Origin: Opitutus sp. GAS368
Lineage (GTDB): Bacteria > Verrucomicrobiota > Verrucomicrobiia > Opitutales > Opitutaceae
Assembly: GCF_900104925.1 (NCBI RefSeq)
Contig: NZ_LT629735.1
Coordinates: forward strand, 2,512,291-2,576,290
DNA length: 64,000 nt
Reading direction: 5' to 3'
The notes under the pieces were generated by a model. It made no database searches and was not told the DNA's origin. It saw only the letters and a list, made by a program, of their open reading frames with translations. Below, piece by piece: positions 11,775 to 63,340 of the stretch. The translations under genes were made by a program, and so were the position numbers. Position 1 is the stretch's first letter. The number at the start of each line of letters is the position of its first letter.

Positions 11775-11855
11775 GTAGGGCGCGGACTCCGCTCCGCGCC
11801 TTCCGTCAGGACATCGCAGCCCGCGCGCGGCGGGCAGCGGAGTGCCCGCCCTACC
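11775..11855. repeat. GTAGGG-type palindromic element (A family variant)
   Basis: Element bounded by GTAGGGCG and CGCCCTACC, containing the words GCGGACTCCGCTCCGCGCC and GGCAGCGGAGTGCCCGCCC. It fills the space between two convergent genes. Its right end supplies the TAG stop (11851-11853, read on the minus strand) of the threonine dehydratase gene. Related copies are at 14160, 14629 and 60736. Confidence 0.75.
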
Positions 11856-13410: not shown

Positions 13411-14163
13411 ATGACTGCGGGTAACCTTGGGACTGAAGTCGGAGACCGTCCGGGAAATCGCTGGGCGGACGCCTGGCCCGACGCGCTGGCCTTCGCCGCG
13501 GGGCTGGGCATGGCGTGGTATTTCAAATGGGAGACACGCGACCTCGTGTGGAGTCTCTGGCTTTCGAGCCTGGTCGTCGGCTATGCGATGATCGTGTGGG
13601 ACATCTTCAGCCCGGGGATGCTCCTTGTGACCAAGGTGTGGGGCGACCGGGCGATGCTTTCCCCCGAGCCCAAGGGGCCGGCCATCGCCGGCGGCGCGGT
13701 GCTGTTGGTGGGCGGGCTCTTCATGCTCGCGTTTTTTACCGTGCACTTTGGCGGGTTTCATTTCGTGCACTCGGTTTTCCTCAACGTGTTCTTCCCGCTG
13801 GGGCCGGTCAAAAACAGCTGGCCCAACGCCGCGCTCTACCTGCAGGTGCTGCGCGACTACTGGCCTTTCGTGCTGGTGGCGGCAGTGGCCGAGCGGAAGG
13901 CCTTCCGGCTCGCCCCGGCAGAACCGGCCGGGCCGGAGGACACCTCGGTCACGGCGGCGGCGATCGCGGCGCGCAAGGCCCGGAATGCCCAGGCGGCGTT
14001 CGCGAGCGGCGGCCTGATGGCGCCGTATAAGAATGTGGTGCGGCTCCACTGCCTGATTTTCTTCTTTGCCGCCGCGCATTTCGCCAAGCTGGACAACTTC
14101 CTGGTCTACGCCGTCGTCTATGCGGTGTATTTCTTCCCGTGGCGGCTGCTGAAGAAAGGGTAG
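13411..14163 (+). CDS. Multi-spanning membrane protein, DUF6498-like
   Basis: Predicted inner-membrane protein of 250 residues with about six hydrophobic segments. The segment FFTVHFGGFHFVHSVFLNVF is characteristic and resembles the DUF6498 family; function is unknown. A polar, Ala-rich loop (about residues 165-205) separates the last two spans. The ATG follows directly after a palindromic element, with no visible Shine-Dalgarno sequence, so the start may be further in. Its TAG stop (14161-14163) lies inside the GTAGGG end of the next repeat. Confidence 0.7.
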   Translation: MTAGNLGTEVGDRPGNRWADAWPDALAFAAGLGMAWYFKWETRDLVWSLWLSSLVVGYAMIVWDIFSPGMLLVTKVWGDRAMLSPEPKGPAIAGGAVLLVGGLFMLAFFTVHFGGFHFVHSVFLNVFFPLGPVKNSWPNAALYLQVLRDYWPFVLVAAVAERKAFRLAPAEPAGPEDTSVTAAAIAARKARNAQAAFASGGLMAPYKNVVRLHCLIFFFAAAHFAKLDNFLVYAVVYAVYFFPWRLLKKG

Positions 14164-14217
14164 GGCGGTGAGTCCCTTCACCGCTGGATTGGCGCGGAGC
14201 GGAGCCCGCGCCCTACC
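14160..14217. repeat. A-family palindromic element, copy 1
   Basis: 58-nt element bounded by GTAGGGCGGTGAGTCCC and GCGCCCTACC, with the inner hairpin GGTGAGTCCCTTCACC. It nearly matches the copies at 14629-14686 and 60736-60793. It provides the TAG stop of the upstream membrane-protein gene and reaches the end of the convergent OGG gene. Confidence 0.85.
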
Positions 14218-15184
14218 GCCCGCCGTGGCGGCGTTCCCACGCGAACAGGTATTGCTGGGCCAGCCCGGCGAGCGGGCCGAAGTGGGCGCGGCCGAAGTGC
14301 GCCACCGGCGCGGGCTTCCAGCCCTCGAGACCATAGCGGCGGGCGAGTGATTTCAGCACCCACGTGTCCACGGGAAAAGCCTCGAGCCGGCCGGCGCCGA
14401 AAAGCAGGACGCAATCGGCGACCTTTTCGCCCACGCCGGGCAGCTCGAGCAGGCGGGTCTTGGCCGCCGGGTAGGGCAGGTGCTCGGTCTCCTCCAGCCA
14501 GCCCGGCCGCGCGGCGATGAACTTCGCCGTGCCGTGGATGTATCTGGCGCGGAAACCGAGCAGGCAGGCGCGGAGTTCCTTTTCGGGAACGGCGGCGAGT
14601 TCGGCCCAGGTCGGCAGGCGGTGGAACGGTAGGGCGGTGAGTCCCTTCGCCGCCGGTTCGGCGCGGAACGGAGTCCGCGCCCTACCGATTTCGGCACCGT
14701 GTCGTTCCGCCAGCAGCGCACACATCTGTTTGATCTGGACGATCTGTTTGGTCGCGCTGCAAAGGAAGCCGAGCAGGGTTTCGCCGAAGGGCTGGCGCAG
14801 GATCCGCAGGCCGGGGAAAGCGGCGAGGCATTGCGCGAGATGGGCGTCGCTGCGCCACGGGAGCGCATCGATGAGCGCGGCCCAGTCGCGGTCGAGTCCG
14901 AGGTAGCGGGGCAGGGCGGAAGCGACGACGGCACGCAACGCCGTGGGCGCGCGCCACTCAAGGGAGTCGTCACGCAGGCGGAGCTGGGCGACGCAACCGG
15001 CCCAGGTGCCGGTCCAGACACGGTGGTCGCTGATTTCCATATCAACGACAGGCGTCGGTGTGGAAACCGACGCCCACCTAAAGCTTTGTCCACCATCCAG
15101 CGTCTCGGCGAGGACGTCCGGCGTCAGACGGAGCGCGAGCGGCTGCCACTCAGACCACGGGACTTGCCTGCCAATGCGTGTCAT
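14213..15184 (-). CDS. 8-oxoguanine DNA glycosylase/AP lyase, OGG1 type, carrying repeat insertions
   Basis: Base-excision repair enzyme of 323 residues that would remove 8-oxoguanine from DNA. The N-terminal domain has LDGGQSFRW, typical of OGG. The helix-hairpin-helix and active site are intact: LPGVGEKVADCVLLF carries the Schiff-base Lys (as in human OGG1 GVGTKVADC) and FPVDTWV the catalytic Asp. Two palindromic elements lie inside the frame without breaking it: one encodes about residues 36-54 (STPTPVVDMEISDHRVW), the other about 167-185 (IGRARTPFRAEPAAKGL). I chose the ATG at 15184, which itself lies in a third repeat; upstream codons are pure repeat. Whether the enlarged protein is active is unknown. 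Confidence 0.85.
   Translation of the reverse strand: MTRIGRQVPWSEWQPLALRLTPDVLAETLDGGQSFRWASVSTPTPVVDMEISDHRVWTGTWAGCVAQLRLRDDSLEWRAPTALRAVVASALPRYLGLDRDWAALIDALPWRSDAHLAQCLAAFPGLRILRQPFGETLLGFLCSATKQIVQIKQMCALLAERHGAEIGRARTPFRAEPAAKGLTALPFHRLPTWAELAAVPEKELRACLLGFRARYIHGTAKFIAARPGWLEETEHLPYPAAKTRLLELPGVGEKVADCVLLFGAGRLEAFPVDTWVLKSLARRYGLEGWKPAPVAHFGRAHFGPLAGLAQQYLFAWERRHGGR
14629..14686. repeat. A-family palindromic element, copy 2, inside the OGG gene
   Basis: Same 58-nt unit as at 14160 (GTAGGGCGGTGAGTCCC ... GCGCCCTACC), here in the coding region of the OGG gene between the KQMCALLAERHG and LPTWAEL segments. The reading frame passes through without a stop. Confidence 0.85.
15023..15078. 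repeat. C-family element, copy 1, inside the OGG gene
   Basis: Two linked palindromes: GTGGTCGCTGATTTCCATAT and GGCGTCGGTGTGGAAACC..GACGCCCACC. The same pair occurs in reverse orientation at 43044-43100, and its first half at 21257-21281. This copy lies in frame within the OGG coding sequence. Confidence 0.8.
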
Positions 15185-15254
15185 TCTGAGCGAAGCGAAG
15201 AATCCATTCTGCCGGCGTCGATCCAACTGGATTCCTCGCTTCGCTCAGAATGAC
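15180..15254. repeat. F-family inverted repeat (GTCATTCTGAGCGAAGCGA)
   Basis: Near-perfect inverted repeat: left arm GTCATTCTGAGCGAAGCGAA from 15180 and right arm TTCGCTTCGCTCAGAATGAC ending at 15254 (allowing one step). A half copy lies at 15746-15772. It separates the OGG gene from the secreted-protein gene and supplies the ATG chosen for OGG. Confidence 0.8.
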
Positions 15255-37433: not shown

Positions 37434-37662
37434 GGGGTGAGTGAAAAGTGATGTGTGGCGAGTGACAAGTGATGAGTAGGGAGCGCAATGAGACTGCCGA
37501 AGGGAGACAGAGTTTCAGAAGATGGCCACGAAAAGGCGCCAAAAGGCACTAAAATGGAGCCGGGGCGACCCCGCCCCGGAAGAACGCGGCGTGGTCGCCG
37601 CGTCTCCAGCGGCGAGCGGCTTTTTCGTGTCTTTTTGTGCCTCTTTGTGGCTAAACCAGAGC
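37434..37662. repeat. Nested repeat region between MoxR and the RF-like gene
   Basis: Three layers are seen. 37438-37480 holds GTGAAAAGTGATGTG/GTGACAAGTGATGAG words. 37520-37557 (GGCCACGAAAAGGCGCCAAA) pairs roughly with 37617-37652 (TTTTTCGTGTCTTTTTGTGC CTCTTTGTGGC). Between these arms lies a D-family copy (37555-37608: GGGGCGACCCCGCCCCGG, then GCGGCGTGGTCGCCGCG, TCTCCA). The frame of the next gene is open through part of it. Promoters of both divergent genes must lie here. Confidence 0.75.
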
Positions 37663-43043: not shown

Positions 43044-43128
43044 GGTGGGCGTCGGTTTCCACACCGACGCCTGTCGCCGATATGGAAATCGGCGACCACC
43101 TTCGGCGGGGTCAGCGACCCCGCCCTAC
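43044..43128. repeat. C-family element, copy 2, plus a GGCGGGGTC hairpin
   Basis: 43044-43100: GGTGGGCGTCGGTTTCCACA CCGACGCC and GTCGCCGATATGGAAATCGG CGACCACC-type, inverse of the OGG copy. 43104-43124: hairpin GGCGGGGTC/GACCCCGCC, then CCTACC, whose CTA is the TAG stop of the sensor-kinase gene. It lies between convergent genes. Confidence 0.85.
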
Positions 43129-60735: not shown

Positions 60736-60793
60736 GTAGGGCGGTGAGTCCCTTCACCGCCGCGAAGGCGCGGAACGGAGTCCGCGCCCTACC
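60736..60793. repeat. A-family palindromic element, copy 3
   Basis: GTAGGGCGGTGAGTCCCTTC ACCGCC and GCGCGGAACGGAGTCCGCGC CCTACC: nearly the same 58-nt unit as at 14160 and 14629, 46 kb away. Confidence 0.87.
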
Positions 60794-63271: not shown

Positions 63272-63340
63272 GGGTGGAGCGCGTTGACCTCAACGCGCTT
63301 TCCGGTTCTTAAAACGCGCCGGGGTCAGCGCGTTCCACCT
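63272..63340. repeat. E-family element, copy 3, between rpsO and pnp
   Basis: GGTGGAGCGCGTTGACCTCA ACGCGC and GCGCCGGGGTCAGCGCGTTC CACC, outer arms complementary. It lies in the 293-nt space between rpsO and pnp and would be part of any joint transcript. Confidence 0.8.

Follow-up and report, generated by a model that had tools for sequence, protein, structure and literature searches.

The window analysed here, a stretch of 64,000 nucleotides from the genome of Opitutus sp. GAS368 (4,150,783 bases in a single contig), carries an OGG-type 8-oxoguanine DNA glycosylase gene in and around which repeats of three kinds, named A, C and F, are found. The gene and its repeats are as follows.

14213–15184, minus strand: OGG-type 8-oxoguanine DNA glycosylase gene, predicted to run from an F-derived ATG to an A-derived TAG; the open frame reaches a TTG at 15226.
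15022–15078, minus strand: C repeat, a REPIN-like doublet with GTGG heads, 57 nt, in frame, forming part of loop 1.
14628–14686, minus strand: A repeat, a REPIN of two inverted REPs with GTAG heads, 59 nt, in frame, forming most of loop 2.
15180–15254, no strand assigned: F inverted repeat, whose gene-proximal arm holds the ATG at 15182–15184.
14159–14217, no strand assigned: third A REPIN, at the 3' end of the OGG gene, whose GTAG heads hold two TAG stop codons.

The open reading frame encodes 337 amino acids from the TTG at 15226, or 323 amino acids from the ATG in F. The protein contains an OGG_N domain (E=2.7e-9; 37.7 bits, above the curated cut-off of 23) and an HhH-GPD domain (E=5.6e-7; 30.3 bits, above the curated cut-off of 26.2), and its best solved relatives are OGG proteins. 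K254 and D273 (numbered from the ATG), which we take to be the catalytic Lys and Asp of OGG enzymes, are invariant in 34 aligned proteins and match the corresponding Lys and Asp in the alignment with mouse OGG1. The AlphaFold model, built with 34 sequences, has a mean pLDDT of 86.4, and its best Foldseek matches are OGG structures; the only internal residues with pLDDT below 50 are 44–51, 173–175 and 177–180 (from the ATG), all of them inside the two inserts. The protein is thus modelled as keeping the OGG fold, with low model confidence at the inserts, and by domains and predicted structure the gene is assigned to the bacterial OGG-type 8-oxoguanine glycosylases. It has both domains, the Lys and Asp and the overall fold in common with the OGG1-type glycosylases of Clostridium (3i0x/3f0z), human and mouse, and differs from them in that two of its loops are lengthened by repeat-encoded peptides. 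Outside the inserts the gene is under purifying selection, with a core dN/dS of 0.11–0.16 against six relatives. A pseudogene or a misannotated gene with unexpressed inserts, which the score of 137.9 bits against NCBIfam TIGR00588 (curated cut-off 397.85) could be taken to indicate, is extremely improbable in view of the intact frame, the invariant Lys and Asp and the modelled OGG fold, and the pseudogene reading was rejected on the core dN/dS. The low TIGR00588 score may be what is expectable in the bacterial branch of OGG.

The peptide encoded by the C repeat is STPTPVVDMEISDHRV and that encoded by the A repeat is IGRARTPFRAEPAAKGLTALP. The A repeat has the layout GGTAGGG...CCCTACC, its ends are complementary at 8 of 8 bases, and it is the strongest fold in the OGG gene. 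A is a REPIN, i.e., a doublet of GTAG-type REPs: it is built from two inversely oriented hairpins, each outer end carries a GTAG head, and A also occurs dispersed in the genome as single units of 25–29 nt (about 27 nt; L131, L134, L136–L141). At least 34 matches to A were found in the 4.15-Mb genome, from the scoring of 40 among 59 candidates. C has three matches in the genome, two besides the copy in OGG; by reading it has GTGG heads at both ends, these ends have drifted, and it fails the strict rule of 7 complementary end bases out of 8. A chance likeness was rejected for both A and C, because both are multi-copy in the genome. Unlike extragenic REPINs, these two copies lie inside the OGG gene; their position is an oddity and no disqualifier, since intragenic GTAG REPs are on record in Di Nocera et al. 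2013 (PMC3733652). The third A copy provides the TAG that ends the OGG gene (14213–14215, minus strand) and also the TAG that ends a convergent open reading frame on the plus strand (14161–14163). A preliminary description of this DNA had placed the A and C units inside the coding region, correctly to within 1–2 nt, and had called the frame open and the active-site Lys and Asp intact, which our results bear out. It had overlooked the third A copy as a stop codon, and also the other repeats that relatives carry in the same loops.

Comparison with orthologues showed that A and C are insertions. The closest relative, L032/L004, is 86% identical to the window OGG and lacks both A and C, with the flanks kept. 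Loop 1 has 6 residues between the flanking Trp codons in L032 and 19 in the window, and loop 2 has 8 codons in L032 and 25 in the window. The window loop 2 is made up of the 59-nt repeat and 16 nt of loop, as compared to a 24-nt loop in L032, so that loop 2 has lost roughly 8 nt of its former sequence, and this loss keeps the frame. The compensating change that the length of A had been said to demand, then counted as 58 nt, is therefore present, and the two peptide segments are the insertions they had been supposed to be. Apart from the window, L033 alone among the orthologues falls into the group of the A insert; it carries the A DNA repeat at the same junctions and has a loop 1 different from that of the window. 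The refuting case named in the preliminary description, the same peptides in orthologues without the DNA repeat, was thus not seen among the orthologues analysed. In the core tree the window pairs with L032, followed by L034 and L035, and the three other members of this clade have no insert, an ERVD-type insert and a CRAG-type insert, respectively. Because L033 falls outside the window clade, either A entered the gene twice or L032 has lost it.

The F repeat has 84 matches in the genome, a number in which most palindromic places are counted on both strands. An F arm lies directly upstream of the gene in 7 of the 95 unique orthologues described below, its ATG is in frame in all seven, and the distance from this ATG to a conserved Trp is 108–123 nt, always a multiple of three. 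In L033, which is without F, an ATG of its own occurs at CGCATGAAC, the corresponding window sequence being CGCATTGGC. The OGG start seems to have moved into F, and the comparison speaks for the earlier suggestion that F gives the likely ATG. By reading of the sequence, a Shine-Dalgarno-like motif is not evident before this ATG, and its use as the actual start is predicted from the comparison of orthologues.

Insertion has recurred at the same two loops of this one enzyme. Orthologues are present in 48 of the 57 genomes searched, this genome included, and a further search gave 80 loci of named contigs, with Lacunisphaera, Opitutus, Oleiharenicola and other Opitutaceae among the relatives. The query and 111 loci were reduced to 95 unique orthologues by identical core, leaving out L001 and L002, which are the query's own region. 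Internal insertions of at least 6 residues occur at these two loops and in three rows near residue 85. Loop 1 has 6–7 residues in 71 of the 95; the length of loop 2 varies between 7 and 52 residues, with 8, its base length, in 20. The long loop-2 inserts, defined as those of 16 or more residues (n=54), were sorted into 31 groups by sequence, and the core tree, made with the loops removed, requires the group to change at least 42 times and the presence at least 23 times. Sixteen of the 54 are the strongest fold among same-length windows of their own gene, as compared to about 0.8 by chance, and 17 of the 54 have REPIN-type ends, as compared to 50 of 966 control windows. Among the 14 long loop-1 inserts only two are the strongest fold and two have REPIN-type ends, so that the case for a REPIN site is less clear at loop 1. 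Sixteen loop inserts of relatives were searched in their own genomes and at least 10 have another copy there among the copies listed, i.e., at least 7 of 8 in a first batch, with G018 as the exception, and 3 of 8 in a second batch (loop 2 of G019, loop 2 of G009 and loop 1 of G020). In that second batch a second copy was not listed for loop 1 of G019, G012 and G009 or for loop 2 of G005 and G020 in the respective genomes. The loop-2 insert of G012 has dozens of copies in its own genome.

Clear inverted-repeat or REPIN ends are absent in 37 of the 54 long loop-2 inserts, some of which are low-complexity or weakly folded, and therefore not every loop-2 insert is a REPIN. Such inserts could suggest that the loops are ordinary hypervariable linkers whose likeness to repeats is due to chance or to low-complexity convergence. 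This is very unlikely for the loops as a whole: the genome-wide copies of A and of the G012 insert, together with fold and end tests that exceed the controls, contradict it for A, C and the multi-copy inserts, although for part of the rest it may hold. In loop 2 of L021, L039, L070, L083, L022 and L068, simple repeated words (STLNPQPST-like, SLVTSHS-like) were seen, which are not palindromes. The two loops might also be hot spots with target sites for sequence-specific integration, beyond mere tolerance, because the loop-2 boundaries of unrelated families lie within about two codons of each other and the GTGG head of C at loop 1 overlaps with a GTGG that L032 has without the insert. However, the loop-2 sequences that were read show no common target word, and non-palindromic inserts accumulate in that same loop; we regard site-specific integration as quite unlikely.

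Candidate transposases are present in this genome. Genes matching Pfam Y1_Tnp were found in 14 of the 16 genomes searched, with nine matches in the present one, and the flanks of seven of these nine loci were read, the remaining two being 152-aa matches. In six of the seven the gene is flanked by palindromic repeats whose heads resemble GTAG, GTGG or GGAGG. These Y1_Tnp/RAYT-type genes (L155 and L157–L161 in G000) each have their own kind of flanking palindromic repeat. The A family was not found flanking a RAYT-type gene in the seven loci read, the nearest A copy being about 1.7 kb off, and the connection of A with any particular transposase is a putative one.

We consider it very probable that A and C represent REPINs mobilised by transposases and filtered by selection into tolerant loops. 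A and C would be REPIN-type non-autonomous palindromic elements that land in many places, probably moved by the RAYT/TnpA-REP-type transposases of this genome via single-stranded DNA. Copies inside genes would survive just where the frame stays open and the site is a surface loop, and such inserts would be neutral. Because the two OGG loops would fit both conditions, different REP families may repeatedly have entered, left or displaced one another at these sites across the family. The F inverted repeat would have entered directly upstream, its arm replacing the ancestral start codon.

In the REPIN and RAYT paper of Bertels and Rainey (2011; PMC3116915), REP doublets in inverted orientation, singlets and transposase genes flanked by REPs are described, all of which are also seen in this genome; the REPINs described there are mainly extragenic, whereas A and C in the window lie inside a gene and no RAYT flanked by A was found among the loci read. 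The rickettsial palindromic elements (RPEs; Ogata et al. 2000, 2002) are, as described in PMC10969869 and PMC3733652, palindromic repeats whose in-frame peptides are tolerated by proteins unrelated to one another, and in the former they are given as Rickettsial and about 150 bp long. The in-frame insertion into genes of unrelated proteins is also a property of A, which occurs in OGG, SNF2-type, RlmI-type and Mfd genes, and the comparison of orthologues supports the earlier view that the palindromes here encode tolerated in-frame peptides. The likeness to RPEs which the preliminary description had drawn stands as an analogy and fails as membership: A is a GTAG-headed doublet of 59 nt and C a GTGG-headed one of 57 nt, against about 150 bp in that account, and judged against the RPE descriptions both were rejected as RPEs on length and heads. 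The statement that such elements are not expected here did not hold, since intragenic GTAG REPs had been reported by Di Nocera et al. (PMC3733652) as most numerous in Opitutus terrae and often located in repair genes.

The phenomenon of intragenic REPs is therefore already published for this bacterial family, and OGG is an unusually clear case of it. According to PMC3733652, in-frame doublets encode 20–30 residues, the GTAG ends give TAG stop codons, intragenic REP inserts are proposed to occupy flexible loops, and different REPs are found at about the same recB site in two Xanthomonas, with differing sites in other genes. The window resembles that account in the bacterial family, the in-frame palindromic doublets with GTAG or GTGG heads, the repair genes and the TAG stops. 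It differs in that one gene pair (recB) is presented there, whereas here many inserts are seen in two loops over dozens of species, together with a repeat-derived start. A term search in the main text of PMC3733652 did not find OGG, and neither there nor in literature searches was an earlier report of OGG as a REP host or of repeated loop turnover found. A literature search on the F arm matched just one unrelated paper, and a combined-term search on palindromic repeats inserted in frame found no paper. What appears to be new is that the inserts form a series in two loops of a single enzyme across dozens of species, that they turn over rapidly from one sister species to another, and that the start lies in a repeat. 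In this conserved enzyme the start codon, whose use is predicted, two internal segments and the stop codon are all supplied by repeats. This natural series of 95 orthologues, two loops and dozens of unrelated inserts bears on how proteins absorb random inserts of 15–40 residues, and on why REPs are so common in genes of repair and RNA modification.

Other genes of this genome carry such doublets as well. A strict search for REP doublets gave 56 in an 864-kb sample (the window and 40 stretches), as compared to 2 in a shuffled copy, and a looser rule gave 83 in the same sample, 15 of which were coding candidates by an automatic call that put the candidate at 14629, the A copy in OGG, on the wrong strand. 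Seven candidates (L168, L169, L173, L177, L179:1270, L185 and L200:18699) were dropped as weak or spurious because there was no Pfam match at the repeat, the repeat lay outside the domain, or it was not REP-like. The in-frame doublets of the sample lie in the genes of UvrA (two), a DEAD-box RNA helicase, RsmB, KsgA and a CobW-like GTPase and in a 441-residue frame for which no family was recognised. A check of 30 of the 34 A matches for spanning open reading frames added an SNF2-type helicase, an RlmI-type methyltransferase and Mfd as in-frame hosts. Eight of the nine named hosts in this small sample, OGG included, act on DNA or RNA, the ninth being the CobW-like GTPase.

This leaning, which section 15 of PMC3733652 also reports, could mean that the inserts are adaptive, i.e., that REPINs alter the activity or regulation of repair and RNA-modifying enzymes, for example towards a mutator state, and are kept by selection; the mutator state is put forward as speculation by Di Nocera et al. 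(PMC3733652). We consider such adaptive inserts unlikely. Both the sequence and the presence of the inserts differ between sister species, which fits tolerance better than a conserved function, and the eight of nine is a raw count from a small sample in which OGG was given, not found. A broader conjecture, to be regarded as improbable, is that REPIN turnover in Opitutaceae is a continuing engine of loop insertion aimed by tolerance or selection at DNA and RNA enzymes, with the OGG loops as very active sites where sister species swap unrelated REP-encoded peptides, some of which swaps would alter repair activity and hence the mutation rate.

Several of these genes showed further repeats on reading. 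The UvrA of 2029 residues (L164:12864–18950, G000) contains REP doublets in frame at two places and, by eye, perhaps one more stretch like a repeat, and resembles the case reported for the uvrA of O. terrae. The Mfd (L136), SNF2-type (L121) and RlmI-type (L133) genes of G000 have A-family doublets or single units in frame, and in the SNF2-type gene a further A-like stretch is split by another repeat peptide. The CobW-like GTPase (L172:10887–12374, G000) has a single doublet in frame, and by eye another peptide like it. Within the window, the strict search also placed REP doublets at 11775–11854, 37556–37607, 43045–43128, 60736–60792 and 63274–63338.
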